Counted from the stretch's first letter, positions 1,784-28,120 are shown. The stretch is DNA of 33,785 bases from an uncultured Flavobacteriaceae bacterium (GCA_937923735.1 CALDUJ010000150.1:1-33785), one strand, 5' to 3'. The notes: generated by a model not told the origin, from the letters alone. A program made the numbers and translations.

Positions 1784-1794
1784 AACAATATCTC

Positions 1795-2433: not shown

Positions 2434-2477
2434 TGACATAACAATTGATCAATAGCAATACCTAGTGTTAATTGTTG

Positions 2478-2514
2478 AAAGCCCGTCCTAAATAAATTTA
2501 AGACGGGCTTTTTT
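2478..2514 (+). terminator. Rho-independent terminator downstream of the GMC pair
   Basis: Inverted repeat aaagcccgtc...gacgggcttt (2478-2487 / 2502-2511) followed by a T-run. Confidence 0.85.
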
Positions 2515-2525
2515 AAACCATAAAA

Positions 2526-3326: not shown

Positions 3327-3347
3327 TAGCTTGATATAGACACTATC

Positions 3348-5844: not shown

Positions 5845-5902
5845 AATTTTTATCGGTTTAATTAATATTTGTTCACAATATCTAAATTTATTAGGTATAA
5901 TA

Positions 5903-5915
5903 GTGTTAATAACAC
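5903..5915. promoter_or_regulatory. Perfect 13-nt palindrome, candidate operator
   Basis: gtgttaataacac, about 60 bp upstream of the T9SS protein gene start. Confidence 0.3.
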
Positions 5916-5968
5916 CTATACAAAAACAATACAACAATAGAAAAACCTATAACTTCTAGCAAAAAAGG

Positions 5969-9247: not shown

Positions 9248-9265
9248 ACTAGAATGTTTATGCTT

Positions 9266-9298
9266 CAAAAATATTAATCGATACTCTTACACATGCAA
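9266..9298 (-). promoter_or_regulatory. Candidate Bacteroidota promoter (-33 TTTG / -7 TAnnTTTG)
   Basis: Minus-strand TATTTTTG (9273..9266) with TTG at 9298..9296, spacer 22 bp, immediately upstream of the CRTAC1-like gene. Confidence 0.35.
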
Positions 9299-9369: not shown

Positions 9370-10779
9370 TTAGTGCTCTTTTCGTTTATCTAACTCAGTT
9401 CTAATTTCATTGGCACGGTCTTCACTTAAATCATAATTACGCATGACTAACATAGCAACAATCACTCCTACAATTGGGAGAAGAGAATAGAACATTCTAA
9501 TCCCTGTTACAGATGATGTTGTAACGTCCTCGGCTTGAAAGCCTACCAGCCACAAAATCGTACCACCGAGCAAAGCTGCAAATCCATATCCCACTTTTAC
9601 CATCCACCAATATACAGCTCCTAAAACACCTTCTCGACGTTTACCCGTATTTAATTCATCTAAATCACAAACATCCGCTGTCATAGACATCATTATTGTA
9701 AACAAACCACCAATGCCAAAGGAATGGAAAGGCAATGCATACAAAAATAAATGAGGCTTACCCTCAATAAACAAAAACCAAAATAATATGTATCCTATGA
9801 TTGATATAGATTGTGATATCATGAATGTTCTTTTCTTACCTATTTTTTTTGCCATATACGCCACAATAGGAATCACTAAAAAAGTTGTGCATAATGCCCC
9901 AATACTTCCGTGCATAGAAGGCCAAATTCCTGCTGCAGCTTGATTACTGTTAAACATATGATGCCATATTATTAACGGTGTAAATGATGCTATAACATTA
10001 AAGGAATTAAAGATTAAAAAGGTAGCAAGAGCTATTTTTCTGAACTGCTTAATTTTAAAGGCAGCAAATGCTGATTTAAATATTTCACCAATACTACCAA
10101 TAACATATTTAAAGCTTATAGGTAGAAAATCCGTTCGGTCTTTGGTTGATTTACTTTTAATAAAAATAGCTGGAATAACAGCAAATATTGTACAAGGTAT
10201 CGCTACCCAAATCGATAGCTCTCTAACACCATAATCTGCACCGTTAGGAAACCACTCTGGGTCGTATAAAATAACCCAAAACCATGGTGCTATTACCCAA
10301 GCCCACTGACCAATCCATTGCGCAACAGCCATAATCTGAGTGCGTTCATGAAAATCGTCACTCATTTCGTAACCCATAGCTACATAAGGTACACTAAAAA
10401 TAGTGAGCCCCAAATAAAACACTAAAGACCATAAAAAGAAATACCAAAAATTAAATGTTATTCCACTTTCCTTAAATATTTGCCACATTGCGACATAAGC
10501 TAAACCCATGATAACCCCACCAATCAGAACATAAACACGTCGTCTTCCATATTTGGATTTTGTATTATCTGAAATATAGCCCATAATAGGATCTGTTATA
10601 GCGTCAAAAATTCTTGGAGCAAATTGAATTACTCCCCAAAGAAATGGTGCAAACCTTAAATCTTGAACCAACACAATGATAAATACACCAAGTGCTGCAG
10701 GAAACATTTGATTGGCTAGCATACCAAACCCGAAGGCAACTTTTTGACCAAATGGTATTTTACTTATAGCTGTAGACAT
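9370..10779 (-). CDS. MFS transporter, GPH (glycoside-pentoside-hexuronide:cation symporter) type
   Basis: 469 aa polytopic; 'RIFDAITDPIMGYISDNTKSKYGRRRVYVLIGG' is the GPH/MelB-type signature; sits downstream of the GH genes. Confidence 0.9.
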   Translation of the reverse strand: MSTAISKIPFGQKVAFGFGMLANQMFPAALGVFIIVLVQDLRFAPFLWGVIQFAPRIFDAITDPIMGYISDNTKSKYGRRRVYVLIGGVIMGLAYVAMWQIFKESGITFNFWYFFLWSLVFYLGLTIFSVPYVAMGYEMSDDFHERTQIMAVAQWIGQWAWVIAPWFWVILYDPEWFPNGADYGVRELSIWVAIPCTIFAVIPAIFIKSKSTKDRTDFLPISFKYVIGSIGEIFKSAFAAFKIKQFRKIALATFLIFNSFNVIASFTPLIIWHHMFNSNQAAAGIWPSMHGSIGALCTTFLVIPIVAYMAKKIGKKRTFMISQSISIIGYILFWFLFIEGKPHLFLYALPFHSFGIGGLFTIMMSMTADVCDLDELNTGKRREGVLGAVYWWMVKVGYGFAALLGGTILWLVGFQAEDVTTSSVTGIRMFYSLLPIVGVIVAMLVMRNYDLSEDRANEIRTELDKRKEH

Positions 10780-10814: not shown

Positions 10815-12311
10815 TTATTTCTGACTTGGGATTACGATGGTTTGAATGGCTTTGCCATTTATCTTTACATCAATAGATTTTTCTTGCAGTGTCAATCTAA
10901 ATTCTTTAGGCTCAGGATTTTCATTAAATGCAACAATTGCTATGGAACCATCTGGATTTTTGGCTGCTGTTATCATCAAGCTATCATCTTGATTATCTAA
11001 ACCAATTATTACTGCGTTTGGTCTTATGAATTTGCTAAAGTGACTCATTGTATAGTATAATGGTGTAAAATACACTTCATCATTTTCTGGGTCTACAATT
11101 ATTGGAGCAACACACCAATTCTTAAACCAGTTAGGCCCTCCTTGGCGGTCTAGAACCATGTTCCAATCTACCCAACCGTCTACCCAATTGTTAAGGCAGC
11201 CAATAATATCTCTCGCATAACGATTTACAGGGGCATATTTAGGATGTAGGTGTTTGTCCTTTTCAGGTGCCCAATCCCAACCCCAATCTGTAGCTCTTTT
11301 TTCCCAATACCAGGTATCTTCTTGCCATTTAGGGACTTCTGAATCCACACATGCTTCGGTCTGAATAAGTAGTTTATTAGGTGCTTTTTTATGTGCGTAT
11401 TGTAATTCCTCAGGAAATATTTCATACGTACTAGCATACCAATGTACCGCAGTACCATCGAAATATTTTGAAGTCTCTTCATTCTCATACATAACATCAA
11501 CCCATTGTTTTAGATGATCACGGTTTTGGTCATAACCTAATATTTTTAACTCATCCTTTCCATCTGCCTCTAACTTTGGCCCTAAATGATTCATTACGAA
11601 GTCGTTCTGCTCTTCAGCAGTAAAGTGCATACTTTCCCAATTATTGCCGTTGCCTAACGGTTCATTCTCAACTGTAAATCCCCAAATATCTATACCTTCG
11701 GCTTTGTAGGCATCTGCATATTTTGAGAAAAACAATGCCCAGGTATCGTAATACTCAGGAAGCAATTTGCCACCAACCCATTTGTTATTGTCTTTCATCC
11801 AAGGTGCTGCGGTCCATGGTGACCCAAATATCTTGAACCCATCTTCAGAGGAAGCCATCGCATCTTTTATCATGGGAATTAAATCGTCTTTATCTTCTTT
11901 TATGGAAAAATGCTTTAATTCTTTGTCACCTTCAACTGGAGTATATGAGTAATTGTTGAGTGAAAAATCACAAGAATTCATGTGTGTTCTTGCTAGAGAA
12001 TAGTTAGCTCCTTCTCTGCTGAAATAAGCATCTATCACTTTTTTACGATTCTCCTTTCCAAGTTTATTTAATAAATAGGCAGAAGATTCAGTAAAAGCAC
12101 CACCAAATCCAGTAATTGTTTGAAATTCTTTATTAGGAAAGATATTCACATTTAAAAGTGAATCTCCTACAGAAAACTCAGTAATCTTGTTAAGTTTATT
12201 GCCATTGGCAGATGTTTCGTAAACATCTACATGTAATAATGAATCATTATTACTACAATTGGTCACAGCTAAAAAGATGCACAGTGTAAAACAATACTTT
12301 AAGCATGTCAT
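10815..12311 (-). CDS. GH30 family glycosidase lipoprotein (beta-1,6-glucanase / glucosylceramidase-like)
   Basis: 498 aa; lipobox 'IFLAVTNC'; 'ITGFGGAFTESSAYLLNKLG'; acid/base region 'GFTVENEPLGNGNNWESM'; nucleophile region 'LLIQTEACVD'; C-terminal beta domain. Confidence 0.92.
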   Translation of the reverse strand: MTCLKYCFTLCIFLAVTNCSNNDSLLHVDVYETSANGNKLNKITEFSVGDSLLNVNIFPNKEFQTITGFGGAFTESSAYLLNKLGKENRKKVIDAYFSREGANYSLARTHMNSCDFSLNNYSYTPVEGDKELKHFSIKEDKDDLIPMIKDAMASSEDGFKIFGSPWTAAPWMKDNNKWVGGKLLPEYYDTWALFFSKYADAYKAEGIDIWGFTVENEPLGNGNNWESMHFTAEEQNDFVMNHLGPKLEADGKDELKILGYDQNRDHLKQWVDVMYENEETSKYFDGTAVHWYASTYEIFPEELQYAHKKAPNKLLIQTEACVDSEVPKWQEDTWYWEKRATDWGWDWAPEKDKHLHPKYAPVNRYARDIIGCLNNWVDGWVDWNMVLDRQGGPNWFKNWCVAPIIVDPENDEVYFTPLYYTMSHFSKFIRPNAVIIGLDNQDDSLMITAAKNPDGSIAIVAFNENPEPKEFRLTLQEKSIDVKINGKAIQTIVIPSQK

Positions 12312-12333: not shown

Positions 12334-13614
12334 TTAGTTATGCTTCATAATTTCCATTTCAGTAGGTGGTACAGATACATCTTTCATTAGGGCGTCTTTA
12401 TTTCCTTCGTAAGTTTTTGTAATTGGGTTTCCATTTCTAGTGAGTCCATCAAATATGCCTTTATCTACCATATCCCAAAGTGCATATTTTGCTTTTCCTT
12501 CAACCGTAAACAGACCAAAATGATTTTCTGAACCGCCTGGGTTTTGTGCATCTTTCCATGGCTCGTTAAAGGCTTCAAAATAAAAACAGGAAATGTTATT
12601 CTTATTTGTCCACTCTCTTATCAGTTCATGGAATAAAGCTTCTTTATACTCGTCAGTGGCTTTTGATGCTTTAGGCCCATAAAAACCATTAGATGAAGTT
12701 GCCCAACCTGTTTCTCCAATATGTATTGGTTTGTCTGCGCCTACGGACTTCATATAGTTAACAACTGCTTGATATTGCGATACGGCATAGTTGAATGACC
12801 TTTGCATAGCTGCATCAATTTTTTCGATATCAGAAAGCGCTTGCTCTGTTTCAGGAACTCCCCAAAATTCTGGGTTATAATGCGTGTCATGCATAGGATA
12901 GGTATGCATAGAGATAAAGTCTACAGCATGAATTAGTTTATTTAAATCTTCTACATGATATTGGTTTTCGCCTCCACCCCAAGAGGCAAAATTATCTGAG
13001 CTAGTTATCCAAACATCCTCAGGTAGCTTTTCAGCTTTCTTAAGTTCTTGTAAATGGTTTACCCACTTTAATATAATCCTAGGATCCACAAAATAACCCG
13101 CCTGCCATTTTACCATCGCTTCGTTACCAACGGCAATAACTTTTACGATATCTGGGTACTCGTTAGCCAATTTAACCGCAGATGCAATTTCAAAGGCATT
13201 TCTTTCGCTTTCCTCATGATGTACCAGTGGTTGGTCCGTCCAAGCATTTTTACAATCTATCCATGCTCCTAACATCACATACATCTCAAAATCAGGGTTT
13301 TCCTCTTTAAGCGTTTTTATAGCCTTAACCAAATTAAATGCATGGGGCAAATGGAGTTTATAGGTCCTTACGATGCCAACACCCATAGCCGACAGGAGCT
13401 TCATATCCTCTTTTAACTCAGCTATTGTTGGTTCGATATCATGATTTTTATCTCGATAGCCGCCATAAGACATGGCTAAATACTTTGGATTTCCTAAAAT
13501 ATCCTTCGCTGTTAGATTTGGTCTTTTTTTCACGGTCTTATTATTTGAACCGTTACATGAAAACATAATCATAGCTAAAAAAAGATAAGCGACTATTTTT
13601 ATGTATCTCTGCAT
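12334..13614 (-). CDS. GH17-like endo-beta-1,3-glucanase lipoprotein
   Basis: 426 aa; lipobox 'LAMIMFSC'; acid/base 'VIAVGNEAMV'; nucleophile 'PIHIGETGWATSSNG'; 'YFEAFNEPWK'. Confidence 0.9.
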   Translation of the reverse strand: MQRYIKIVAYLFLAMIMFSCNGSNNKTVKKRPNLTAKDILGNPKYLAMSYGGYRDKNHDIEPTIAELKEDMKLLSAMGVGIVRTYKLHLPHAFNLVKAIKTLKEENPDFEMYVMLGAWIDCKNAWTDQPLVHHEESERNAFEIASAVKLANEYPDIVKVIAVGNEAMVKWQAGYFVDPRIILKWVNHLQELKKAEKLPEDVWITSSDNFASWGGGENQYHVEDLNKLIHAVDFISMHTYPMHDTHYNPEFWGVPETEQALSDIEKIDAAMQRSFNYAVSQYQAVVNYMKSVGADKPIHIGETGWATSSNGFYGPKASKATDEYKEALFHELIREWTNKNNISCFYFEAFNEPWKDAQNPGGSENHFGLFTVEGKAKYALWDMVDKGIFDGLTRNGNPITKTYEGNKDALMKDVSVPPTEMEIMKHN

Positions 13615-13625
13615 GTTGTTTCTTT

Positions 13626-16600
13626 TTACTTTTTGAGTGATACTTCTATATGGTTAATATTTCCTGTTCTTTCAAAAACTGCACTACTAGTTCCTTTATC
13701 GAGCTCCAAATTTTCAAAATTCACTTCAGAACCGTCATTATTAATAACTCTAATAAAACTGTCATTACTCAATTTGTATACGATTGGAATCTGACAATAG
13801 GTAAAGCATAGAGAATCCTTTTCTACTTCAATTTCTTCTAGTTTATTTTTAAGATTTACATATTTGAATGTACTTGAAGATTTAAGAAATTCTTCTCCCC
13901 TTAATAGTCTTGGGTTAAACTGAAGTAAGCCATCTTTCACTATAATTCCAAGCTCTCCGAATCTTGATAAAATATCTTCTTTTACTTGACCTGTCATTCC
14001 TGGTTGTTGTGCTCCTTTTCCTCCTGGTGTATGCGAGTAGGCATCCGTAGGAAAAGCACCATACAATTCAGGTGATTTATGTACACCAATACCTTCATTT
14101 ATTTCGTAATAATGATCTAGCAATCCTCCAATTGTAATTTCGCTTTCTCCATCGTTTACGGCTTTTAGACTAGTTTCCTGAACACTCAGTAATAATTTAG
14201 ATACCATGTGCCAATAAATAGATCCTAATCCTTCGTAACCATAAAAAGTACCTGATCGGCCTGTGAATGATTTATGATTAAACATATCTTCGAATACTTC
14301 CAGAAGATACTTAGTTTCCTTTTCTGCACGGGGTTGATATTTTGTGCCTGACAATTTTGAAAGTGCTTCTTTTAGGCTCTTAGCATTGTTAAAGTTTCCG
14401 TTGAAGTGATAATTACCCAACATATCCTTTTCGATAATTTGAGAATCTCCATCTTCGGATAACTGCTTCAATAATTCTGATTTTGCCACAGCAGGTGCTG
14501 GAATATTATTTCGGTCCACAAATTGTGGCAACTGCTTGTCTGGATAGAGTATGTAACTGTATTGATCAGGACGGAATAGAGCACTACTCTTTAAAGCATT
14601 TAATAATTCCAATGATGCTTTACCAGATATATAACCTGAGCTTAAAACTGCTACCTGTCCTTCTAGCATTTCTGGCAAATACGAAATTGAGACTTCTAAA
14701 TCGCTTTGTACAGTCATCAAATTATAAGCATGGTATAATTTATCCTGCCTCTTATTGGCTCTAATGGAATGCTCTAAATAGTTATTGGTCAGCTCTAAAA
14801 ACTGAAGCATATCTGCTTTAGTAAGTGTTTTCTTTTGTCCTGTAAAACCTTTTTCATAAATCGCCCAGCGATAATCGCTACCTGCATTACCAAGGCCATC
14901 CATAACTGTTTTTCTATCTGTATCGGAAATTTTACCAGAAAGTATTTGTTTATTAGAAGCAAGTGCAAATACAGTTTTTTCAAAAAATTCTGATAACTCT
15001 TCAGAAATTTGATAGTCTTCATTCGAAGCATCTTTTACAACATCATTAAAAAATGCTAAGAAGCGTCTCAGATAATAAAGCGTTACCATTGATACTCCAT
15101 TTCCTACCAGTGCATTGTTAGCATCATTCCATTCCGGACGCTGGGTATTCATCCAAATACCAGCTTCTGGAATAAAGTTCGACACTTTTGCCAATACCGT
15201 AGCAAGTAACTTTTCTATTAAGTTAACCGTGTAAATCGAGGCATTCTTGTCGGTCATTAAAACACCATCTGCACCTATTACTTCTCTTTTTTCATCTATT
15301 TTCTCATTGAGTCTGTAATCAAAATCAATAGTGTCTTTAGGGTTAGCTAGTGTCTCTTCGTAGGTTTTTATTTTGTATGGTACATTGGAATACACAAACA
15401 TATCCTGATTAAAATAACTCGCTAACTTACTTGGATAATAGTTTTCCATAAACTCCAAGAACTTTAGTAAGTAGATTATTTGATGATCTCCCCAATACCC
15501 TATGTAAGACCATGGATCATCTTCTTCAATAACCTCCCAATCTATACCTCCTTTTGTTACACGATAAGGGTTATAACCATCAAAAGTTGTAGCATTTAAG
15601 AATTTATGAATCATACTCTCTATAAACCCTGGATAAGAATGTGCCAAAGCCTCCCAATTCTGGAAAATATCTCGCCAATTACCTTCGTAATCTAGAATTT
15701 TAGAGCCATCAACCTCACTTTTTGTGTTAATCGAAAACTTATTCCAAGGTCTACTCGGGTCACCATGTCTTCTACTGAATTTTAATGGTAGATATTCAAA
15801 ACATAGTCTTTTGAAGTTTGTATCGCCATCATTCTCGGCAATAGATTGTATAAAGTTTAAATCAAACTCTTCAGGGAGTTTTGCTAGTATATTTTGTTTC
15901 TCTTTGAAGGTGTTTTTATTGGCATTAAAAATGTAATTAACAAAATCTTCTTTTTCAATTTGGTAGCCATTATCAAAAATACCACCACGCATTATGTTAA
16001 ATAATGTATTTGAAAAATGCCTTGTATTCCTGAGCTGATCACTACTCAATTGTAGAGCGTCTGAAGCTGCTGCAAGTTCAATTAAATTCTTTGTACCTAA
16101 TTCAATGTCATTATTTATGGCTGAGTCTAAATCAGATTCATTTTTAATTGTTTCAATAATCTCAGTAACTGCTGTCATTGATTTATTAACATCAGTAACA
16201 AACTGCCAAATACTATGAGATTCAGGAGAAAGTTTTAATTCTGCACTAATAAAATAAGCACCTTTCTCAGCTCTAATATCTGTTTCTTCGTGAATATCCT
16301 TTCCTCTTCTAAAATCGTCTAACTGCAATGAGGACAGCAAATATTTAGGATTATCTAATCCTTTAGACCATACAACGTTAGTTTTTAAAGCTTCACTAGG
16401 TTCTGCTTTATCTACTATAATAGCGCTTAATGAATACAATCCTAAGCCAACGCTTTTTTCAAGCTCCGTCTTTTTGTAAGCATCCACTAAATTACTACTG
16501 GCATTTTGTAAATCAGGATTTACACCATGAGGCATAATATTTTGTAGACCATCTAATAAATTAATGTTTACATCTGATGTGCTGTGATTAATCAATTTTG

Positions 16601-17087
16601 ACTTCTTTACAAAACCAAATCGATCGCTAGAATTCCATTGATATCGGAATGTCAGATTTAAATCCTCATTGATTTCTTCAAAAATGACTTTATTACCGTA
16701 CTCGTTTTTATAAAGATTTCTTTTAATCTTATAAATTCCTTTATAACGGTCGGAGAAAGGCTCCCATAAGTATGTCTTTTCCTTTTTATGAACTTGTAAA
16801 ATGGTTTTACTTCCTGTTATTTCAGAAGATTCAGTTATTTTATCATCTGTGTAATAAGGGAATAATGCATAATTAGAATTTTTTCTACCTGCTGTTAACC
16901 CTCCATTACTGGATATAAACATCCAGTGATTGGAATCGCTCACGAGACTCATAAAAAAGGGTCTCATGTTATCACTATTAGAGATTTTATAATACACTTC
17001 ATTCTCAAAGGTTATCAATTCTCCTTTAATTTCGTTTTCATAAAAAGAAGCGATATTACTTCCTATGTATATTTGGTTGTCAGTCAT
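13626..17087 (-). CDS. GH94-like glycoside phosphorylase of about 1150 aa (candidate GH149/GH161 beta-1,3-glucan phosphorylase), cytoplasmic
   Basis: 1153 aa, no signal peptide; 'SYIGYWGDHQIIYLLKFLEFME', 'GVHKSPELYGAFPTDAYSHTPGGKGAQQPGMTGQVKEDILSRFGELGI' are clan GH-Q-like phosphorylase motifs; neighbours are GH16/GH17/GH30. Confidence 0.82.
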   Translation of the reverse strand: MTDNQIYIGSNIASFYENEIKGELITFENEVYYKISNSDNMRPFFMSLVSDSNHWMFISSNGGLTAGRKNSNYALFPYYTDDKITESSEITGSKTILQVHKKEKTYLWEPFSDRYKGIYKIKRNLYKNEYGNKVIFEEINEDLNLTFRYQWNSSDRFGFVKKSKLINHSTSDVNINLLDGLQNIMPHGVNPDLQNASSNLVDAYKKTELEKSVGLGLYSLSAIIVDKAEPSEALKTNVVWSKGLDNPKYLLSSLQLDDFRRGKDIHEETDIRAEKGAYFISAELKLSPESHSIWQFVTDVNKSMTAVTEIIETIKNESDLDSAINNDIELGTKNLIELAAASDALQLSSDQLRNTRHFSNTLFNIMRGGIFDNGYQIEKEDFVNYIFNANKNTFKEKQNILAKLPEEFDLNFIQSIAENDGDTNFKRLCFEYLPLKFSRRHGDPSRPWNKFSINTKSEVDGSKILDYEGNWRDIFQNWEALAHSYPGFIESMIHKFLNATTFDGYNPYRVTKGGIDWEVIEEDDPWSYIGYWGDHQIIYLLKFLEFMENYYPSKLASYFNQDMFVYSNVPYKIKTYEETLANPKDTIDFDYRLNEKIDEKREVIGADGVLMTDKNASIYTVNLIEKLLATVLAKVSNFIPEAGIWMNTQRPEWNDANNALVGNGVSMVTLYYLRRFLAFFNDVVKDASNEDYQISEELSEFFEKTVFALASNKQILSGKISDTDRKTVMDGLGNAGSDYRWAIYEKGFTGQKKTLTKADMLQFLELTNNYLEHSIRANKRQDKLYHAYNLMTVQSDLEVSISYLPEMLEGQVAVLSSGYISGKASLELLNALKSSALFRPDQYSYILYPDKQLPQFVDRNNIPAPAVAKSELLKQLSEDGDSQIIEKDMLGNYHFNGNFNNAKSLKEALSKLSGTKYQPRAEKETKYLLEVFEDMFNHKSFTGRSGTFYGYEGLGSIYWHMVSKLLLSVQETSLKAVNDGESEITIGGLLDHYYEINEGIGVHKSPELYGAFPTDAYSHTPGGKGAQQPGMTGQVKEDILSRFGELGIIVKDGLLQFNPRLLRGEEFLKSSSTFKYVNLKNKLEEIEVEKDSLCFTYCQIPIVYKLSNDSFIRVINNDGSEVNFENLELDKGTSSAVFERTGNINHIEVSLKK

Positions 17088-17221: not shown

Positions 17222-19540
17222 TTACTCTAATCTAATATCATCAAAATAATAAGTTTCGCTAGTACTGGTAACTTCACCATCTGTACCATCTGGATTATCA
17301 GGCTTAATAACAAATTGATTTAATCCTGTGTTACTTGGAGGTATTCCCGTAAATACGATTTCTACCTCTGTCCAAGTGTTAGCTTGAGTAATGGTTGCAT
17401 ATTGTGGCCCTGGATTTCCAGAACCTGGAGATTGTGGGTCACTATTAACTTCAAATCTCATTACGACATTAGCCTTAGTAGAATATATTTTAACTTTAAA
17501 TGTCTTTGTAGCATCAAAATTACTTGGGAATGCGTTTTGGAAACCTGCCCATCTATTCGTTCCAGAACCTTTATCAACTTTCAATACATAATCAGAGGTG
17601 TTTATACCTGACATTGATGGATTATCAGCTAGCACTGTAGTAATGCTTCCAACATCATTAAACGTACTAAGGAATGACTCGCAACTCTCAAAGTTTATTG
17701 GGAAAGCAGTTGCAGCAACAGCATCTCCTGCACAGCCTCCGCCACCTGTACCAGTACCAGTATCGCAATCATCGCAGAATAGAGATACGTTGTCAATAAC
17801 CACTACACCAGTAGCTGCTCCCATATCAAAAAGAACGCGACTATTGGCGCTACCAAAATCAGCTGATGATAGATTTAGCTCAAATGTCTGAGTAGTAGTT
17901 GTTAAATTAACTTCCTCTGTTGCGGCAGTCCAAGGGTTTTCATTAAGACCAATGCCTGCAACCAATGTACGGTTACCATCGGATGAAGCATCAAAGGTCA
18001 AAGTATAGTTCTTGCCCTGCTCAATTTCTACTACTTGGCTTAAATTAACATCAAATGGATTTCCGGCGGCCATAACATTTGCGAAGTTAAATGAGTTTCC
18101 ACCATCTTCTTGGAGGTTAGCGGCATTTCCAAACCATGGATCTATTGATCCAGACTCGAAATCTCCATTGGTTAAAAGCCCATCATCAAAAGTTCCTCCA
18201 CCTCCACCACCAGTGCCGTAAACCATTAAATCATCAAAATAATAAGTACTACCATCTGCAACATTAAAATTGAAGAACAACACAATTTTATTAAACTGTG
18301 GTGTAGCAGTAGGTGCAAAATCAAACGTTAATTCTTCCCAACTATTGGCCGCTGTTGTATTTTGCAGAATTTCAACAAAATTTCCAGCATTTCCTATTTC
18401 CTCCAATTTCAATAGAACAGGTGTATTTGCAACAGGAGACCAAATCTTGATTTTTAGACCCTCAACAGCATTAAAATCTAACTTATCGGCCAAATCAATT
18501 TGAAGATTATCGAAAGGTGAATTATTGGCTCTAGTAGCCTCACCAACTTTACACGAAGTATTCACTGATCCAGAATCATCCGGATTGTCTATCCATGCAA
18601 ATGTTGTATTATCTTGAATAAAAGTAGGTGTATTACTTTGGAAAGTAATATTTAAATCGGCCGCAGCAATGGACTCTGCAGTTTCAGGAACACAAGTTCC
18701 ACCACCACCGCCTCCGGTGCCATAAACCATTAAGTCATCAAAATAGTAAGTACTCCCATCAGCAACATTAAAATTGAAAAACAATACTATCTTGTTAAAT
18801 TGTGGTGTTGCAGTAGATTCAAAATCAAAGGTTAACTCTTCCCAAGTATTTGCAGCTGTTGTGCTTTGCTGAATTTCAACAAAATTTCCAGCATTCCCTA
18901 TCTCCTCTAACTTTAAAAGTACAGGTGTATTTGCAACAGGCGACCAAACCTTAATTTTAAGACCCTCAACTGTACTAAAATCTAACTTATCAGCTAAATC
19001 TATTTGTAAATTATCAAAGGCTGAATTATTTGCTCTTGTCGCTTGACCAACTTTACATGATGTATTAATTCCTGAAGCATCCGGATTATCTATCCATGAA
19101 AATGTCACATTATCTTCAATAAAAGTCGGTGTATTACTTTGGAATGTAATGTTTAAATCCGCAGCGGCAATCGATTCTGTGGTTTCTTCAGTACAATCAC
19201 CACCACCTGTATTTGAACCATTGATGGTAATGGTATCAGTAAATGTTATAAAAGGGCTTGCTACATTTCTAGCAGATAATACAACTTCGTATGTTCCAGG
19301 TTGATATACATGCGAAGGGTTTATCTCAGTGGACTCTTCGTCATCACCAAAATCCCAGTGATAAACATTTGCATTCTCAGATGTATTTATAAAACTCACT
19401 ACGCCTGTTTCTTGATTTATAGTATATGTAAAATGAGCTACTACCTCTGGAAGTATTACATCATCTTCTTCACAATTAACCATAGCCATACCAATGAATA
19501 GCACCGATAGGATTTTAATAGATTTTAATATGGTTTTCAT
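17222..19540 (-). CDS. Surface glycan-binding-like lipoprotein: PKD domain + tandem duplicated CBM-like domains + CBM4/9-like domain + C-terminal CBM-like domain
   Basis: 772 aa; lipobox with acidic stretch 'GMAMVNCEEDDVILPE'; PKD 'YHWDFGDDEESTEINPSHVYQPGTYEVVLSA'; two near-identical ~165-aa units separated by GGGGGGT linkers; 'LLTNGDFESGSIDPWFGNA...VVIDNVSLF' CBM4/9-like. Confidence 0.85.
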   Translation of the reverse strand: MKTILKSIKILSVLFIGMAMVNCEEDDVILPEVVAHFTYTINQETGVVSFINTSENANVYHWDFGDDEESTEINPSHVYQPGTYEVVLSARNVASPFITFTDTITINGSNTGGGDCTEETTESIAAADLNITFQSNTPTFIEDNVTFSWIDNPDASGINTSCKVGQATRANNSAFDNLQIDLADKLDFSTVEGLKIKVWSPVANTPVLLKLEEIGNAGNFVEIQQSTTAANTWEELTFDFESTATPQFNKIVLFFNFNVADGSTYYFDDLMVYGTGGGGGGTCVPETAESIAAADLNITFQSNTPTFIQDNTTFAWIDNPDDSGSVNTSCKVGEATRANNSPFDNLQIDLADKLDFNAVEGLKIKIWSPVANTPVLLKLEEIGNAGNFVEILQNTTAANSWEELTFDFAPTATPQFNKIVLFFNFNVADGSTYYFDDLMVYGTGGGGGGTFDDGLLTNGDFESGSIDPWFGNAANLQEDGGNSFNFANVMAAGNPFDVNLSQVVEIEQGKNYTLTFDASSDGNRTLVAGIGLNENPWTAATEEVNLTTTTQTFELNLSSADFGSANSRVLFDMGAATGVVVIDNVSLFCDDCDTGTGTGGGGCAGDAVAATAFPINFESCESFLSTFNDVGSITTVLADNPSMSGINTSDYVLKVDKGSGTNRWAGFQNAFPSNFDATKTFKVKIYSTKANVVMRFEVNSDPQSPGSGNPGPQYATITQANTWTEVEIVFTGIPPSNTGLNQFVIKPDNPDGTDGEVTSTSETYYFDDIRLE
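18217..18705 (-). repeat. Tandem intragenic repeat, unit 2
   Basis: Encodes 'AESIAAADLNITFQSNTPTFIQDNTTFAWIDNPDDSGSVNTSCKVGEATRANNSPFDNLQIDLADKLDF...YYFDDLMVYG'; near-copy of unit 1 offset by about 501-504 bp. Confidence 0.9.
18721..19206 (-). repeat. Tandem intragenic repeat, unit 1
   Basis: Encodes 'TESIAAADLNITFQSNTPTFIEDNVTFSWIDNPDASGINTSCKVGQATRANNSAFDNLQIDLADKLDF...YYFDDLMVYG'. Confidence 0.9.
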
Positions 19541-19561: not shown

Positions 19562-20395
19562 TTAATAGTTTCTTTCGTATACTCTTACGTAGTCAACCAA
19601 CATGGTTTGTGGAAATACTGTTTCTGCATTAGGCGCGCCTACATAGTTGCCTCCTACGGCCACATTCATTATTATAAAGAATGGACCATTGTCAAAAACC
19701 CACTCACCAGTTACATCTTCTGGTGTAATCTGGTTATATAGTACATCATCTACATAAAAGTTGATATACTCTGGACCCCATTCGATACCAAAAATGTGAA
19801 ACCCAGTATCAAATCGATCGTTAACCAAATCGTAAGATTTACCGATAGACAGTCCTGCATTATAACCTGGCCCGTGAACAGTACCACTCATTAAAGTAGG
19901 CTCTTGCCCTCTGTTTTCCATAATATCTATCTCTCCACATTGAGGCCATGAAACTTCATCTATATTAGATCCAAGCAACCAAAATGCTGGCCATAGACCT
20001 TGCCCATATGGCAGTTTGATTCTTGCTTCAAAACGCCCATATTTTTGCTCAAACAGTCCTTTTGTTAACATTCGAGCAGAGGTATAATTAGCACCTTGAT
20101 AGTCTTCTCTATCTGCCGTTATTATTAAATACCCATTTTGAACAGTCACATTTTCTGATCTATCTGTATAGTATTGTAATTCATTGTTACCCCAACCATT
20201 TTGACCGCGACCGATGTTATAAGTCCATATATTACTGTTTGGCGCTCCATTTTGGTCAAATTCATCTTGCATAGAAATTTGAGTAAATGTTGCAACGGTC
20301 TGTTGTTCGCTAGTTGAACATCCAGATATAATAAACATCACCAAAAACAGCACAGCTTGTGGAAACGTTTTTTCTATTTTAATTTTTATTCTCAT
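19562..20395 (-). CDS. GH16 family laminarinase-type lipoprotein (endo-beta-1,3-glucanase)
   Basis: 277 aa; lipobox 'MFIISGC'; catalytic 'CGEIDIMENRGQEP' (ExDxxE); 'YGRFEARIKLPYGQGLWPAFWLLG'; 'FHIFGIEWGPEYINFYVDD'. Confidence 0.95.
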   Translation of the reverse strand: MRIKIKIEKTFPQAVLFLVMFIISGCSTSEQQTVATFTQISMQDEFDQNGAPNSNIWTYNIGRGQNGWGNNELQYYTDRSENVTVQNGYLIITADREDYQGANYTSARMLTKGLFEQKYGRFEARIKLPYGQGLWPAFWLLGSNIDEVSWPQCGEIDIMENRGQEPTLMSGTVHGPGYNAGLSIGKSYDLVNDRFDTGFHIFGIEWGPEYINFYVDDVLYNQITPEDVTGEWVFDNGPFFIIMNVAVGGNYVGAPNAETVFPQTMLVDYVRVYERNY

Positions 20396-20422: not shown

Positions 20423-21853
20423 TTACTCTCTGTAGTAATAGATGTTGTCTACAAAAATGTTTGATATAGTAGCATCTGAAACAAAAAACAGAAGGCCTAA
20501 TTGATCTGTATTTGCTAGTCCAGTAAAATTGTTAAGAGGAATATCGTAACTAGCCCATCCATCTGATACCAATTGAGAAGAACTTAAAGTTACCGTCCCA
20601 GATGTTTCGTTATTTCCAACAGAATTAATTAATACTAATCGTATAAAATCTCCAGAATCTATAGCTTCTCTTACATTAATATCCACATGCAAATGTGTCA
20701 TTGTAGTAGCATTTATTGGGGCTACATTCAGAAAAGTTCCTACTCCTACAAAGTTTAACTCAGTGTAGTTTATTATCTGCTCACTACCAAAGGTTTCTGG
20801 AGGAGCTCCGCCCAATGTAGTTTGACCATCAGGAGTGAAAAAACCATTATAATAATCTACTGGAACATTAGTGTAAGCATCGCTAAAAATAGAAATGACA
20901 TCCTCAGGCGCTCTTGTGGGTGTTGGAGCGAAATCAAAAGAACCTGTTGAGGTTAACTCTAAAGAACCATGAGCAAGTACACCAGCAAGAGATGCTGTTA
21001 TTGTCGTTGTCCCTTCTGATACTATTGTAGCTACTCCAGACTCATTTACAAAAGCTACATCTTGGTTAGACGATTCAAAATCAAAATAGGCCGGTGCGGC
21101 ATTAACAGTTAAATTTTCGCCAGTACTTGTGTTGAAAGTTTGCGTAAAACCAAACAATGGAAAATCTATACCTGTAAAACCATTTGCTACCCGGTCTTCT
21201 CCGTTGAATATTGCTGGTTGCGGTTGCGCAAGTGTCCCTAATTTTTCAAATTTAACCTCATCTAACCAAAAAGTATAACCTACTTCACTTCCTAAAGGAC
21301 CAATGCCAGATGCAGCATATCTTAGCATACCTCTCTCTTGTATTAGCTTTGACGCGTCAGGAATAGGGATAATATACTTTACCCAGTTGGTGGTTAAATT
21401 AACGTTAGTCCTTGTAGCAATAAACTTATTCTCTCCGAAATCTTCACCAAATCCAAACTCGGCTATTGTAACAGCTTGAGAGGCTTTAGCCCAAAATGTC
21501 AAAGCATCAAAGCCAGATAAATTTCTTCCTGAGCCTTCTCCGTCAATTCTAAAAATTGCGCCAGCATAATTTCCTTCAGGATCGTCAGCATTCGGAACGT
21601 CGAACCTCATAGATGCTGACCCCATATAACTTTCCTCTTCATCTACAGACCAAGCTGTTGGTTTTGAACCTGCATAAGGAAAGTAAAAATTTGTTCCCAT
21701 CCCTATTGGTGTATCCGTGAAAATTTCTGCAGTTGCAGGAAATGTTGCAAAAACAGCATCCTCAGATATCTCTCTTTCACAACTTATTGTGATACTAAAC
21801 ACTAATCCTAAGAAAAGTGCAACTCTAAAATATTTAAAATCTATATTTTTCAT
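20423..21853 (-). CDS. Glycan-binding-like surface lipoprotein (CBM-like domains with central Ig-like BIG_2-type domain)
   Basis: 476 aa; lipobox 'FSITISCEREISED'; 'MGSASMRFDVPNADDPEGNYAGAIFRIDGEGSGRNLSGFDALTFWAKAS...YTFWLDEVKFEKLG' jelly-roll pattern; 'ESSNQDVAFVNESGVATIVSEGTTTITASLAG' BIG_2-like; second C-terminal beta-sandwich ending 'NIFVDNIYYYRE'. Confidence 0.75.
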   Translation of the reverse strand: MKNIDFKYFRVALFLGLVFSITISCEREISEDAVFATFPATAEIFTDTPIGMGTNFYFPYAGSKPTAWSVDEEESYMGSASMRFDVPNADDPEGNYAGAIFRIDGEGSGRNLSGFDALTFWAKASQAVTIAEFGFGEDFGENKFIATRTNVNLTTNWVKYIIPIPDASKLIQERGMLRYAASGIGPLGSEVGYTFWLDEVKFEKLGTLAQPQPAIFNGEDRVANGFTGIDFPLFGFTQTFNTSTGENLTVNAAPAYFDFESSNQDVAFVNESGVATIVSEGTTTITASLAGVLAHGSLELTSTGSFDFAPTPTRAPEDVISIFSDAYTNVPVDYYNGFFTPDGQTTLGGAPPETFGSEQIINYTELNFVGVGTFLNVAPINATTMTHLHVDINVREAIDSGDFIRLVLINSVGNNETSGTVTLSSSQLVSDGWASYDIPLNNFTGLANTDQLGLLFFVSDATISNIFVDNIYYYRE

Positions 21854-21865
21854 TTTCTAGCTTTT

Positions 21866-24800
21866 TTATTTTCCAATATTGATGTGTACATAAGTTCTAA
21901 TTTCCCATTCATTTCCATTATCAAACCCAACAGGACTGATTGTTGGCACTGGCGGAAATGTGTTGGGAGCTATAGCATTTGGCGAATACCTTGGAGAAAA
22001 TTGATCCAATGAACGCCAAGTTCCCCTGATTCCTATTTGAGTGCTAGGTAGTATAAACCAATCTGGCTTACCTAATGTTGTTGAAACATCTAACATTAAT
22101 TGAACTGGATAAGTAAGGTTAAAATCTCTATGGTAATCAAAAGGCCCCCAATCGTTAACTTTAAAAGAGTGAACAAATTTCATTTTCTTATAGATGACTC
22201 TTATATCACCACCAAAACGTTCAATCGTTCTTTCATCACTACCGTTAGCCTGTCCAGTTCCACCATAAATGTTGGCAATCAAACCAAGTTCTGGGCTAAC
22301 CTTAGAGACAATACGCGTGTGCGCTTCCCATAAATCTTTAGCTGGAGCCGAATTAGGAAAGGCAAATTGTGTACGGTCAGCTAAGAAACCAATAGCAGCG
22401 TCTTGCGCTGTTGGATGGTGACGATACACAAAGCCAAGATTAAAAGCTAATTTAGCATCTTCTTGTCTATCGTTATCCCATTCGTACATCCACGTTCCTG
22501 GTGTAGGATCGTAGGTAATTAAAAGTTCTCCAGCAGTGGTTTCTCTGTTACCAGCTCTTACCACAAAAGGATCATCTATAACATTTCTTAATCTTCCTGG
22601 CCCCTGAATATCGTTAGGCATTGCAGCAACTATAGGCTTTTGCCACATAAAGTTAGGCGCAATTTGTACATTCCCAAAGGAATAGGTGAAACCAGATAAG
22701 AGATTGGTCATATTACCACTACCACTATCTTTTAATCTCCAACCTGTAAATGTTCTGGTTTCATCAGACCCACCATTGGCGACCAAGCCTTGAACTGAAG
22801 CTAAACCATACCAATTGAAACGTCCTTTTTGGTAAGTGATTTTTGCTTTAGCACCCCAGTTATCTTCCCAATTAATTTTGTCTTCATAAATTGTATAGTT
22901 ACCTGATTCGCCTTCTGCTACTTGAAACGTTCTACCGTTTAACGGTTGGCCAGCCCAAATTCCTCCAACTTCAATTCCTAGGTTTCCAAATTTTCTAGCT
23001 ACATGTAATGTCGCTTTACGGGATCTCGGTGTAGGTACAGCAAATGAACTCACACCTTGGCCTTGGGAATCTATATCGTCTTGATAAATGGCCGAGATAT
23101 CATACTTTCCTAAAGTCTTACTATATTTTAGAAGCACAGCTGGGTTAGCACCCCACCATAATTGCGAACCAAAGGCCGCTTTTAAACCTGCAAATGATTT
23201 CTTACCATCGATTTCAATACCATTAATTTCACCTTGGTAGATATCTAAATTTGGTCCGTAATTAGCCTCTCTATACAATCCGAAAAAATCGCCTTCATAA
23301 CCCCAATGATAATGACCTGTTCTGAAAAACCCTCTCACATCAAAATCTTTGGTACTCCATTCGAATTCTGCATTATACACTTGCACCCTATTTGAATCGA
23401 AAATATCTACATCTCCTTCATCAGAGTTAAGAGAAATTGGACGCCCTCTGTTTTCATAAAAAATTTCGTCAATAGGATTAGCGGCTACATTACCAAGAAT
23501 ATTGAAATTAACACTGGCTCTCATATTTGGCGCCGGATTACCTTCTACTCCAATAAAATAAGATTGCATATGGTCGAACCCTAGCTCATCTGGATATGTG
23601 GTTTCATTTGGATTCGCATCATCTGGCGTTGTTAATAAACTACCTCCAGTGTTAAACGTTGTAAACTCAGCTCTAAGATTACTGATTTTTACTTTTTGAC
23701 TTTCTCCTTCCATAGCAGCTTTATCACCTCTAGCTCTCAAAACCGCGTCCGTTAATTGGATGTTTTTAAAATAATTACTTACAAAATCTGGTGTCACACC
23801 TTCTTCGTAAGGGTTTAATTGATGAGCTTCTTTTAGAGCGTAGTATGCTGCCCTTGGATATAGCGTGTACAGACCTCTGTCGTTAGTAGGTCCTTTGGCG
23901 CAGACACCAAACCACTCCTCATTCATGTTATTTTCGCCTGGAGCTAAATCTAAATAATACCCTCCGTTTGACCAAGAAGCATTGTTATCGTGGACATCCA
24001 AGTTCTTGGTTTGTCCAAATTTCCACCAACCATCACTGAATTGAAAGGTGAAACCACCAATAGAATTTTGAGCTTTCCCTAAACCTGCGGCATTCTCATA
24101 AATATCTTTCCAATTGTTTACCATGTAAAAGGCCTGAGATTTTTGGTCTTCGGCATTCTCTATAGCATTAAAAGCATCTGCACCGAACTCCGTTAGCATG
24201 ATAGGCATATCTAATTTTTGCTTGACCGTTTGGAACGCATCCGTAAATGACTTTCCGCGATACATATTAGTTCCGTATATATCTACATCTTTACATTCTT
24301 CTGCAACAATATCTATAAATAGTACATCACCATTACAAATAGCTACTGGATGAGAAGTACTAATTTCCTTCATTTTTATTGCAGCATCATTCATAAGTTT
24401 ATACATTGGTCTTCCACGTTTTTCCCCAACTTCTCTCCTTTTGTCCTCTTCATCAGGAAAGTCTTCGGTTTCTGCACCGGCCCAAAAAAGTCCATAGTTA
24501 TTTTCATTTCCCAGAAGAAACATCAACAGTCCAGGTGTGTCTTTGTAATCATGGGCGAGTTTAGTCACCTCAGATATTAATAATTCCTTTGTTGCAGCGT
24601 CTCTGTAATCTGTTACTGGAGTCCATACACCATCAATAGTAAGTCCATATCTCCCAAAAGAATGATTTAGCATGGTATAAATACCATAATTTTCATAGAT
24701 ATATTTAATCCATTTAGGCTGTACACCTGTGTACATTCTGACGGCATTTACACCCATATTTTTTAATAATCCCATCTCAGCGTCAAGCGCACCTCTAATA

Positions 24801-25006
24801 ATATCATCTGATTGATTCCATAAGCTGTAATTGTAATTAGTTCCTATCGGAAAATAGTCCCAATTCATTCCGTTGATTATAAAATCTTTACCATCAACTT
24901 TTAATCTCATCCCATCTGTACTCTTGTCAACAGATACTTTATTAGCTTGAGCAAAAATTGATGTCGTAAAGAGAAAAAGCAAAAGTTTTAGAAAATTGTT
25001 TCTCAT
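21866..25006 (-). CDS. Clan-A-like glycosidase (TIM barrel) fused to a C-terminal outer-membrane beta-barrel/porin-like domain
   Basis: 1046 aa; signal peptide 'MRNNFLKLLLFLFTTSIFAQA'; putative catalytic E168 ('LLGNENNYG') and E273 ('IMLTEFGADAF'); after about aa 405 many alternating amphipathic beta-strands ('DISAIYQDDI', 'LGIEVGGIWAG', 'LLSGFTYSFGNVQIAPNFMWQKPI') ending 'NEWEIRTYVHINIGK'. Confidence 0.8.
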   Translation of the reverse strand: MRNNFLKLLLFLFTTSIFAQANKVSVDKSTDGMRLKVDGKDFIINGMNWDYFPIGTNYNYSLWNQSDDIIRGALDAEMGLLKNMGVNAVRMYTGVQPKWIKYIYENYGIYTMLNHSFGRYGLTIDGVWTPVTDYRDAATKELLISEVTKLAHDYKDTPGLLMFLLGNENNYGLFWAGAETEDFPDEEDKRREVGEKRGRPMYKLMNDAAIKMKEISTSHPVAICNGDVLFIDIVAEECKDVDIYGTNMYRGKSFTDAFQTVKQKLDMPIMLTEFGADAFNAIENAEDQKSQAFYMVNNWKDIYENAAGLGKAQNSIGGFTFQFSDGWWKFGQTKNLDVHDNNASWSNGGYYLDLAPGENNMNEEWFGVCAKGPTNDRGLYTLYPRAAYYALKEAHQLNPYEEGVTPDFVSNYFKNIQLTDAVLRARGDKAAMEGESQKVKISNLRAEFTTFNTGGSLLTTPDDANPNETTYPDELGFDHMQSYFIGVEGNPAPNMRASVNFNILGNVAANPIDEIFYENRGRPISLNSDEGDVDIFDSNRVQVYNAEFEWSTKDFDVRGFFRTGHYHWGYEGDFFGLYREANYGPNLDIYQGEINGIEIDGKKSFAGLKAAFGSQLWWGANPAVLLKYSKTLGKYDISAIYQDDIDSQGQGVSSFAVPTPRSRKATLHVARKFGNLGIEVGGIWAGQPLNGRTFQVAEGESGNYTIYEDKINWEDNWGAKAKITYQKGRFNWYGLASVQGLVANGGSDETRTFTGWRLKDSGSGNMTNLLSGFTYSFGNVQIAPNFMWQKPIVAAMPNDIQGPGRLRNVIDDPFVVRAGNRETTAGELLITYDPTPGTWMYEWDNDRQEDAKLAFNLGFVYRHHPTAQDAAIGFLADRTQFAFPNSAPAKDLWEAHTRIVSKVSPELGLIANIYGGTGQANGSDERTIERFGGDIRVIYKKMKFVHSFKVNDWGPFDYHRDFNLTYPVQLMLDVSTTLGKPDWFILPSTQIGIRGTWRSLDQFSPRYSPNAIAPNTFPPVPTISPVGFDNGNEWEIRTYVHINIGK

Positions 25007-25309: not shown

Positions 25310-28120
25310 CTAAACCTCTAGAATATAATTTGTTAAGCTAGTTTCATGTGGTAGAGACATCTTTTTTCTCAGACGATAACGCTTAACTTCTACACTTCTA
25401 GGAGAAATATTTAGAAGCGGGGCGATTTCTTTTGATGAAAGGTTAAGCCTAAGATAGGCACATAATCTTAAATCATTTGAAGTTAAAGTTGGATGAAGGT
25501 TTTTCATCTTTTTTAGGAAATCTTTGTCTGCATTATTAAAAGCTTCTTCAAAGAATTTCCAGTCGTCTGTATTGTTTAAATTTTTATCAATAATATTAAC
25601 TACGGATTTTAATCCTTGACTATTTTCCTTATTTGTCAACTCTTCCTTGATATTATTCAAGAACTCATTTTTCTTTATCAAACTCATTGTAGAGATGGCT
25701 AACTCTCGGTTTTTACTTTCAATATCTTTAGTTAATGCCTCATTCTCGTATTGCATTCTTTGTTGCTCATTCTCGAGCTGTTTCAATTCTAAATCCCTTT
25801 TAGATTTCTCAAGTAATTTTTCTTGCTCCTTTTTATAATATCGTTTATAGATATTGTGCATTAAGAAAGAGAACAGAAGTAAGCCCAATAGATAGAAGAC
25901 TATCATTGTATTGGATATGTACCAGGGCTTTTTTATTGTAAAAGTATAAGATGCCATTTCTCCTACTTCCTTGTCCCCAAATCTCGCTGAAACATTAAAT
26001 GTATAATCACCATAAGGAAGGTTTTTATAAAATACTTCCGACTCATCAGACCAGCCACTCCAGCTATCGTAAATACCTTCTAATTGATGTCTATATTCCA
26101 ATACAGAGTACTTGTTATATACGGGGACACTAAATGAAAATTCAATATTATTTTCGGGATTTTGAAATTCATTTTCTTCTTCCGTATTCACGTATATATC
26201 TGCAATACCGAGTTTTCCTTTCTTAACAGAATTAATAGTTACACTGTGCTGACTATCCTTTATATGATTTAAGTACATAAGCAAGTAACCATTGGAAGTT
26301 CCGAACAAGTAAGTCTCATCCTCTATTGCTCGAATATTCTCGAATCCAGTCATGCTCTTTCTCAAATCACTAGAGATAGAGATTTTATTAATTTCTGGGT
26401 TTGAACTTAGCTTCCCCGGATTGATATAACTAATATTTTTCTCACCAAAAATCCATAACCTGTTTTCTCTTTTATCTGCAACTAACTTTCCGGTAATATA
26501 ATCTTCACCTGAAAATACCGAGCTCAATAGAGAATCTTTAGAGAACTTTTTTTCAGTATAGTCGTACTTAAAAATTCCTTCTTTTACGGCATATAGCAAA
26601 TCATCATTATATTTAACCAAGCTAGAGTGCAAGCCTTTAGGAAGCTCAACAACCTTTGCTACATTGGTCACTTTAGTAAAATCCGCATTTACTCTGAGCT
26701 CATACACGCCTTTGTATTCGTGATTGACATAGATAGTATTATCATCTGGTTTTACCTCGAAGAACCTTGAAGAATTTTTGAATCCTTCAATAAAATTTTT
26801 GACACCCCACTTGCCATTTTTTTTCTCCAAGACATGGAGACCTTCATAATTACCTTGAAGGAGTTTATTTGGCATATTTGGAATGGACTTTATATCCCAA
26901 GTACCTGAAATATTGGAAACTAGTTTTGCTGCTCCATTATCAATAACAAAAGTCCCCTCGTTATGCCCACAAAAGAGTGTGCCGTTTAATTCCACTAAAC
27001 TCCAAACTTGACCTCTGGTGTTATTAATGAATTTAAATTTTTCTAGGCTATCCTTTGGCTTAAAAAATAGTCCTTGGTTTGTTCCGAGATAAAGATTACC
27101 ATCGTAGATTGCAGATGTATAGACAGTGCCGAGGTTACCCGCTTGATTACTAAATTCTCTAAAAGGAGATTTAATATTAATACAATTAATTCCTTCATCA
27201 AGACCCAACCACACATTCTGATCCATATCCTCGTAAAGAGACAAAACCGTGTTGTTACTCAAAGCATTTCCCTGGTTTATGATGTAGTTAATCTTTCCCT
27301 CTTCTGTTAAATGAATAAGTCCATTTGAAATAGTCCCGAGTAAAAAACTCTTATCGCTTAATCGAATACTATTATACACACTAGACCTTGTCAAAAGCTG
27401 ATTGGCTTCGATATCCCATTTATTAATTGATTCTGAATTCAAGATGTAAAAACCATCGTTAGCAAACTGAATTAAATACTTGCCCTGGTTTTCAAATATA
27501 TTAACAACACCTTTCTCCTTTAGCAATACATGGGCACTCACTAATTGCGAAATTCCATTTTCAATTTTAAAAATACCCTGATTTGTTTTTTGAAACATTA
27601 TCGTCTCATCTACCAAAAACATTTTGGTAATACCGCTTTCGGACTCAATAATTTTAAATGTTTCGTTAATTGTGTTGAACAAGTAGATTCTATCCAATGA
27701 TTGAAATACAATCCAATCATCTAATGGGATTATTTTCCAAATATGCTCATCTTCAACCATCTCTTCTTTCATCTTAGGTATGAGCGATGTATAATCCAAT
27801 AATCCAAATTGATTACGTTCCCAGTATCCAAACTCCATGTAACAACCAGTATATATTCTTTCACCGCTAACAGCAACTGCTCTTAATATAGTTTCGTTAG
27901 GAGAAGGGTATAATTGCCATTTGGCGCCATTAAATTCCAGAAGACCAATATTATTGGCTACGTAGATATGTTTATCATCAGATTGCGAAATTGCCCAGTT
28001 CTGGCTTTCCGCTCCATAAGCTTGAGGCGTATATACTTGTATTGGTGGCAATTCTTGTGAATAAGAATAAGCCCCGACCAGTAAAAACAATATGTATAGT
28101 ATAATTTTGGCTTTATACAT
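25310..28120 (-). CDS. Membrane-spanning one-component regulator: two-component-regulator-type beta-propeller, Y_Y_Y domain, TM helix, coiled coil, LuxR-type HTH
   Basis: 936 aa; signal peptide; 'VLSLYEDMDQNVWLGLDEGIN' propeller repeat; 'YRHQLEGIYDSWSGWSDESEVFYKNLPYGDYTFNVSA' Y_Y_Y; TM 'NTMIVFYLLGLLLFSFLMHNIY'; C-term 'LTSNDLRLCAYLRLNLSSKEIAPLLNISPRSVEVKRYRLRKKM' LuxR HTH; no histidine-kinase motifs. Confidence 0.88.
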   Translation of the reverse strand: MYKAKIILYILFLLVGAYSYSQELPPIQVYTPQAYGAESQNWAISQSDDKHIYVANNIGLLEFNGAKWQLYPSPNETILRAVAVSGERIYTGCYMEFGYWERNQFGLLDYTSLIPKMKEEMVEDEHIWKIIPLDDWIVFQSLDRIYLFNTINETFKIIESESGITKMFLVDETIMFQKTNQGIFKIENGISQLVSAHVLLKEKGVVNIFENQGKYLIQFANDGFYILNSESINKWDIEANQLLTRSSVYNSIRLSDKSFLLGTISNGLIHLTEEGKINYIINQGNALSNNTVLSLYEDMDQNVWLGLDEGINCINIKSPFREFSNQAGNLGTVYTSAIYDGNLYLGTNQGLFFKPKDSLEKFKFINNTRGQVWSLVELNGTLFCGHNEGTFVIDNGAAKLVSNISGTWDIKSIPNMPNKLLQGNYEGLHVLEKKNGKWGVKNFIEGFKNSSRFFEVKPDDNTIYVNHEYKGVYELRVNADFTKVTNVAKVVELPKGLHSSLVKYNDDLLYAVKEGIFKYDYTEKKFSKDSLLSSVFSGEDYITGKLVADKRENRLWIFGEKNISYINPGKLSSNPEINKISISSDLRKSMTGFENIRAIEDETYLFGTSNGYLLMYLNHIKDSQHSVTINSVKKGKLGIADIYVNTEEENEFQNPENNIEFSFSVPVYNKYSVLEYRHQLEGIYDSWSGWSDESEVFYKNLPYGDYTFNVSARFGDKEVGEMASYTFTIKKPWYISNTMIVFYLLGLLLFSFLMHNIYKRYYKKEQEKLLEKSKRDLELKQLENEQQRMQYENEALTKDIESKNRELAISTMSLIKKNEFLNNIKEELTNKENSQGLKSVVNIIDKNLNNTDDWKFFEEAFNNADKDFLKKMKNLHPTLTSNDLRLCAYLRLNLSSKEIAPLLNISPRSVEVKRYRLRKKMSLPHETSLTNYILEV

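Follow-up and report, generated by a model that had tools for sequence, protein, structure and literature searches.

The window analysed here, a 33,785-nt stretch of DNA from an uncultured Flavobacteriaceae bacterium, contains a gene in which a glycosidase appears to be joined to an outer-membrane β-barrel, which raises the question of what such a protein does and on which side of the membrane its enzyme works. The gene is read directly as one unbroken frame of 1046 amino acids (aa) plus stop on the minus strand (25006..21866; coordinates below are on the same strand except where marked), starts with ATG and occurs once in the source genome (2.74 Mb, 87% complete). Its N terminus (MRNNFLKLLLFLFTTSIFAQ) has the form of a Sec signal peptide (SPI-like, aa 1–20, 24947..25006), in line with an earlier note made from this DNA, which had claimed a single ORF with a Sec signal. 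Homologues share this form, and a test for a lipobox was negative.

The same fusion is present in many genomes, which rules out a one-genome curiosity or an assembly join; lack of the fusion in relatives was among the outcomes that the earlier note had named as refuting its reading. Besides the source genome, a search at the level of the order found the full protein in 12 of 298 genomes, with 64–74% identity. A scan of GTDB representatives returned at least 598 relatives; among the best 80, which were inspected, all loci encode the same fusion and span the query almost entirely, barring copies cut by contig ends. Judging by sequence conservation, with homologues 57–81% identical over the full length across hundreds of genomes, a chance origin of the ORF is excluded. 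In a phylum sample of 399 Bacteroidota genomes, well-matched barrels were fused in 33 of 33 cases (frames of 1028–1084 aa), other matches being fragments or decayed copies; in this sample we found neither a barrel half without the enzyme nor a barrel joined as a mobile domain to other enzymes. The glycosidase half is fused in genomes that have the fusion and stands alone (346–480 aa) in ten. Distant glycosidase matches from the order-level search (L016–L027) are other GH-A proteins without a barrel. Carriers of the fusion are found in many Bacteroidota, mainly marine in the sample examined.

An AF2 model of the full protein (mean pLDDT 75) shows β/α alternation up to aa 394 and only long β hairpins for aa 439–1044; its pTM of 0.52 means that the relative placement of the two parts is not fixed by the model. 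The earlier note had drawn the border between them at aa 405. The two-part layout stands, but the border does not: natural stand-alone copies of the enzyme end mostly at positions equivalent to aa 419–435 and retain two helices (aa 406–425), which we therefore assign to the enzyme. The glycosidase domain thus includes these C-terminal helices and reaches ~aa 425–430 (aa 24–430, 23717..24937), the barrel extends over ~aa 439–1046 (21869..23692), and alignment of fused with stand-alone copies defines a short spacer between them (aa 426–438, 23693..23731). Since the enzyme helices end at aa 425, only ~10 residues span the distance to strand 1, which begins at aa 439.

The enzyme half is modelled as a β/α barrel, and Foldseek ranks GH158 endo-β-1,3-glucanases as its top matches (E 1.9e-13), followed by GH2 glucuronidases and galactosidases. 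Both glutamates singled out by the earlier note are where it had placed them, E168 within GNENN after β4 (24503..24505) and E273 within LTEFGAD after β7 (24188..24190), and neither is replaced in any of the 69 homologues aligned or in 25 additional, more distant copies. In a profile alignment, the GNE and TEFG motifs of the fusion fall on GNE and TEWG of BuGH158, so that E168, the putative acid/base, aligns with E137, and E273, the putative nucleophile, with E220. E137 and E220 are catalytic in BuGH158, and their mutation abolishes activity (PMC7157763). The enzyme half is therefore predicted to be a clan GH-A glycosidase, a (β/α)8 barrel with Glu after β4 and β7, as the earlier note had read it.

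Within the clan, neither GH158 nor GH2 can be assigned firmly: the sequence scores for either family are weak, and the fusion lacks the N-terminal domains of GH2. Matches to a GH158 sequence profile are weak (E 4e-4 to 6e-4). Pfam reports only a sub-threshold glycosidase match for the source copy, and the GH2 TIM-barrel domain (Glyco_hydro_2_C) in 32 of 36 relatives (best 6e-12). GH158 enzymes (BuGH158, 6pal; GH158(Pro), 9oro) share the TIM barrel, the GNE and TE(F/W)G motifs and the setting in a β-glucan cluster, but they are only ~13–14% identical over the aligned region, have an Ig-like domain and lack a barrel. GH2 glycosidases share the Pfam-matched TIM barrel but carry an N-terminal sandwich domain, whereas in the fusion Pfam reports GH2_C only, with no GH2 N-terminal sandwich or Ig-like domain, and the TIM barrel begins directly behind the signal peptide. 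From its fold and its cluster, we infer that the predicted enzyme would act on β-1,3-glucan.

For the C-terminal half, AF2 modelling of the barrel alone with 61 sequences gave a pLDDT of 78 and a pTM of 0.77. Without two hairpins that lie within long loops, our count is 24 membrane strands. Outer-membrane barrels make up essentially all of the 50 PDB matches listed by Foldseek (BtuB, MOMP, ZnuD, BenF-like, OccK, OmpF, AlgE, MtrB, and others). The TM-scores are low (0.22–0.43), so that strand count and closure are approximate and the protein is best viewed as an addition to the barrel class with no close relative in it. A known porin or TonB family was considered and rejected, there being no relative in Pfam, NCBIfam or PDB sequences. 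Neither Pfam nor NCBIfam reports a TonB plug domain or a SusC family match in the fusion; the glycosidase sits in the plug's place. The loops are strongly asymmetric, with a median length of 27 residues after odd strands versus 2 after even ones (Mann-Whitney p 2e-4), and length variation among homologues is nearly confined to the long-loop side. The Sec signal, the even number of amphipathic strands, the short turns and the C-terminal β-strand are those of an outer-membrane β-barrel protein, and the model thus agrees with the barrel that the earlier note had suspected from alternating strands. That note had also named soluble β-sandwiches as the outcome that would overturn its proposal. Such sandwich repeats might be considered for a region to which Pfam assigns no convincing family, but we reject them as highly improbable, since the AF2 hairpins have 2-residue turns confined to one side, and Foldseek lists outer-membrane proteins rather than sandwiches as matches.

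On which side of the membrane would the enzyme lie? In outer-membrane barrels, short turns mark the periplasmic side. The start of strand 1 and the end of strand 24 are both on the short-turn side of the modelled barrel, and the spacer has only ~10 residues, too few to carry the enzyme through the lumen to the outside; the glycosidase domain is therefore most likely in the periplasm, below the pore. If strand 1, whose hydrophobic alternation is weak, were not a membrane strand, the question would be reopened. Only one turn facing the periplasm is long (aa 833–853, DPTPGTWMYEWDNDRQEDAKL, 22448..22510); it is 84% conserved and may be where the enzyme domain docks.

The earlier note had favoured the opposite orientation, in which the glycosidase faces outward on its porin, cuts glucan on the cell surface and hands the oligosaccharides to the channel beneath. 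Some stand-alone relatives of the enzyme are lipoproteins, which could be surface-anchored, BuGH158, the closest fold, comes from a study of cell-surface glycosidases (PMC7157763), and of the modelled strands, strand 1 is the weakest. Several other stand-alone relatives, however, have a plain Sec signal, and Pfam found no POTRA, autotransporter or T9SS tail domain in the fusion. Together with the position of the barrel ends and the short spacer, this makes a surface enzyme unlikely, and import followed by cutting at the inner mouth fits better than cutting outside followed by import. The layout recalls type Vd secretion (PlpD/FplA), in which a hydrolase is N-terminal and an outer-membrane barrel C-terminal. 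Type Vd proteins, however, have a POTRA domain and a 16-strand barrel and export their enzyme, none of which is seen in the fusion, with its 24 predicted strands, ~10-aa spacer and lack of a POTRA match.

The genes around the fusion indicate what it might handle. Upstream lies a Reg_prop/Y_Y_Y/LuxR-type regulator (Pfam; 25310..28120), conserved in this position and a probable sensor for the cluster. A 476-aa partner lipoprotein with a Big_2-like middle (20423..21853) starts 12 bases past the fusion stop, and is followed by a short GH16 lipoprotein that is a putative surface endo-β-glucanase (19562..20395; Pfam 1.2e-26), a PKD/CBM_4_9 lipoprotein with C-EEDD at its lipobox, a putative glycan binder (17222..19540; Pfam), a GH149 β-1,3-glucan phosphorylase without a signal peptide (13626..17087; NCBIfam 1808 bits, cut-off 1150), GH17 (12334..13614) and GH30 (10815..12311) lipoproteins and an MFS_2 inner-membrane sugar transporter (9370..10779), the last three assigned by Pfam. 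This gene order recurs across Bacteroidota, and the partner lipoprotein comes directly after the fusion in essentially all loci. By its GH16, GH17, GH30, GH149, sugar transporter and regulator, the cluster is of the laminarin utilisation type. Behind the lipobox, the partner reads C-EREISED, and its family has acidic residues after the cysteine (C-E-R-D-x-S-D-D type), a pattern that we take to resemble the surface-export signals of Flavobacteriia.

At the far end of the cluster is a 1099-aa FG-GAP/UnbV_ASPIC lipoprotein (5969–9268), of which a 44%-identical relative adjoins a SusD-like gene on another contig of the same genome (C3), and the cluster ends with a 533-aa protein that carries a T9SS sorting domain at its C terminus (4336–5937). 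On the plus strand (77–4268) are a GMC oxidoreductase, a gluconate 2-dehydrogenase subunit 3-like protein, a 3-keto-disaccharide hydrolase (DUF1080) and a xylose-isomerase-like protein, which look like a 3-keto-glycoside oxidation pathway next to the glucan cluster.

A barrel with a periplasmic glycosidase could also serve traffic in the other direction, the enzyme trimming an envelope glucan on its way out through the barrel, in the manner of the PgaA/PgaB or AlgE systems. AlgE is indeed among the Foldseek matches, and 4 of 36 members match GH72 (glucanosyltransferase) weakly in Pfam. However, the cluster, with its sugar regulator, CBM lipoproteins, GH16, GH17, GH30, phosphorylase and MFS transporter, is catabolic, and no glycosyltransferase or synthase was found among the genes scanned in the window. 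We consider export very unlikely.

Comparison of fused and stand-alone enzymes ties the barrel to its neighbours. The partner lipoprotein adjoins 37 of 38 fused copies versus 0 of 10 stand-alone glycosidase copies (Fisher p 1.7e-9, without correction for kinship). An automatic count found it at 69 of 76 loci and missed ORFs with early start codons, where the gene map shows it to be present. At the ten stand-alone loci the short GH16 gene is also absent, and GH149 is usually directly next to the enzyme. On a tree of the glycosidase domain, the presence of the barrel changes six times, with at least four changes forced by supported branches. One locus is a recent natural barrel loss: in L195 (G405:C314, ~3456–3635), the enzyme ORF ends where the barrel would begin, and behind it lies the decayed remnant of a barrel start, interrupted by two in-frame stops. 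Two other barrel-less copies (L186 in G207, L189 in G391) lie in clusters with SusC, SusD and a different GH16. The barrel, the lipoprotein and GH16 behave as one outer-membrane module, a reading based on the recurrence of the same joint loss and not on any one event; the three genes are contiguous, and a single deletion could take all of them without a functional link.

How does this module relate to SusCD? The earlier note had taken it as established that Bacteroidota divide the work between lipoprotein glycosidases and SusCD transporters. This picture is incomplete, many fusion clusters being without an adjacent SusCD, and many Bacteroidota GH149 clusters have been reported to lack a susCD pair (Kuhaudomlarp et al., PMC5827456). 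Of 61 fused loci whose retrieved flank reached far enough upstream, 13 have SusC in that flank, as do 7 of 38 in a second set; where present, a cognate SusCD pair lies between the regulator and the fusion. Replacement of SusCD by the fusion is not supported as a clean rule, the two occurring together in some loci. The window has no susC-susD pair. In the source genome (87% complete), we found no close orthologue of laminarin SusC, the best matches being partial, with 33–47% identity, versus 49–75% for true laminarin SusC orthologues in other genomes. The two best SusCD loci of the source genome (L121 and L120, contigs C106 and C194) adjoin alginate lyases, and C194 also has SDR and PfkB kinase genes, as in alginate use. 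The genome's second GH16 (L235, G000:C8; 547 aa) has a C-terminal stretch that is T9SS-like by eye, and is possibly a secreted laminarinase encoded outside the cluster. Because most loci have no adjacent SusCD and the source genome no close laminarin SusC homologue, the fusion is the best candidate for the outer-membrane channel, and the only one in the β-glucan cluster of this genome (87% complete). Like SusCD importers, it is a large predicted outer-membrane barrel encoded beside a surface-type lipoprotein in a glycan cluster; it differs from them in having no plug and no SusC/SusD match, in its N-terminal enzyme and in a partner that is not SusD.

In the barrel model, residues that face the lumen are polar, and their conservation exceeds that of residues facing the lipid (0.79 versus 0.67), which hints at an open pore. 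Three long-side loops, L3 (aa 562–594, 23225..23323), L4 (LWWGANP, aa 616–622, 23141..23161) and L11 (aa 953–965, 22112..22150), are 91%, ~100% and 96% conserved, respectively, and this conservation points to inward folding or to binding of the partner lipoprotein. Loops conserved like an active site could instead fill the lumen, leaving a plugged barrel without transport, which only tethers a glucanase in the periplasm and may also dock the lipoprotein; the SusCD pairs that adjoin the fusion in some loci would also suit such a scaffold. Yet anchoring would need no more than a lipid tail or a single short barrel, in most loci no second outer-membrane channel is encoded close by, and the conservation is higher towards the lumen than towards the lipid. 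We therefore regard a pure anchor as fairly unlikely, and the transport role envisaged in the earlier note as plausible.

In the literature searched, whose coverage did not extend to subscription journals and preprints, we found no description of a glycosidase fused to an outer-membrane barrel. A 2026 study of Muricauda lists a 'GH2' gene between a LuxR regulator and GH16 in the laminarin cluster of M. lutaonensis (PMC13188888), which from gene order is probably an orthologue of the fusion. That paper treats the gene as a GH2 enzyme, and a search of its text found neither an outer membrane nor a porin mentioned; orthologues of the fusion appear to be annotated as 'GH2'. A close analogue is found in Formosa, where an inner-membrane MFS-GH17 fusion occurs in such a cluster and coupling of hydrolysis to transport has been proposed (Unfried et al. 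2018, PMC6246565). FORMB_24740 (FbGH17b) likewise joins a glucan hydrolase to a transporter in a flavobacterial laminarin cluster, but it is a helical MFS protein of the inner membrane with GH17 behind the transporter, whereas here a GH-A/GH2-like enzyme precedes an outer-membrane barrel.

We propose, as somewhat the better bet, that the fusion is an outer-membrane channel for β-glucan oligosaccharides with its own hydrolase at the inner mouth. Outside the cell, the 476-aa partner, the PKD/CBM lipoprotein and the short GH16 would bind and cut laminarin. The fragments would cross the plug-less 24-strand barrel, assisted by the partner lipoprotein, and the periplasmic GH-A domain would cut or transglycosylate them as they emerge, thereby preventing back-diffusion. 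GH17 and GH30 would finish degradation in the periplasm, the MFS transporter would take the products in and GH149 would phosphorolyse them. The broader idea, which we put a little below even chances, is that such proteins form a TonB-independent class of Bacteroidota glycan importers, in which a plug-less 24-strand channel, an attached periplasmic hydrolase that makes entry irreversible and a dedicated surface lipoprotein act as the laminarin gate of SusCD-less clusters.

What is new about the fusion is the way it is built and, possibly, a function as a gate independent of SusCD. For GH149 clusters without susCD, it is the obvious candidate for the route of glucan across the outer membrane. 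If the proposal is true, uptake would be driven in a simple way without TonB energy, the substrate being destroyed as it leaves the pore at its inner mouth, and PUL predictions that count SusCD pairs would miss such uptake systems.
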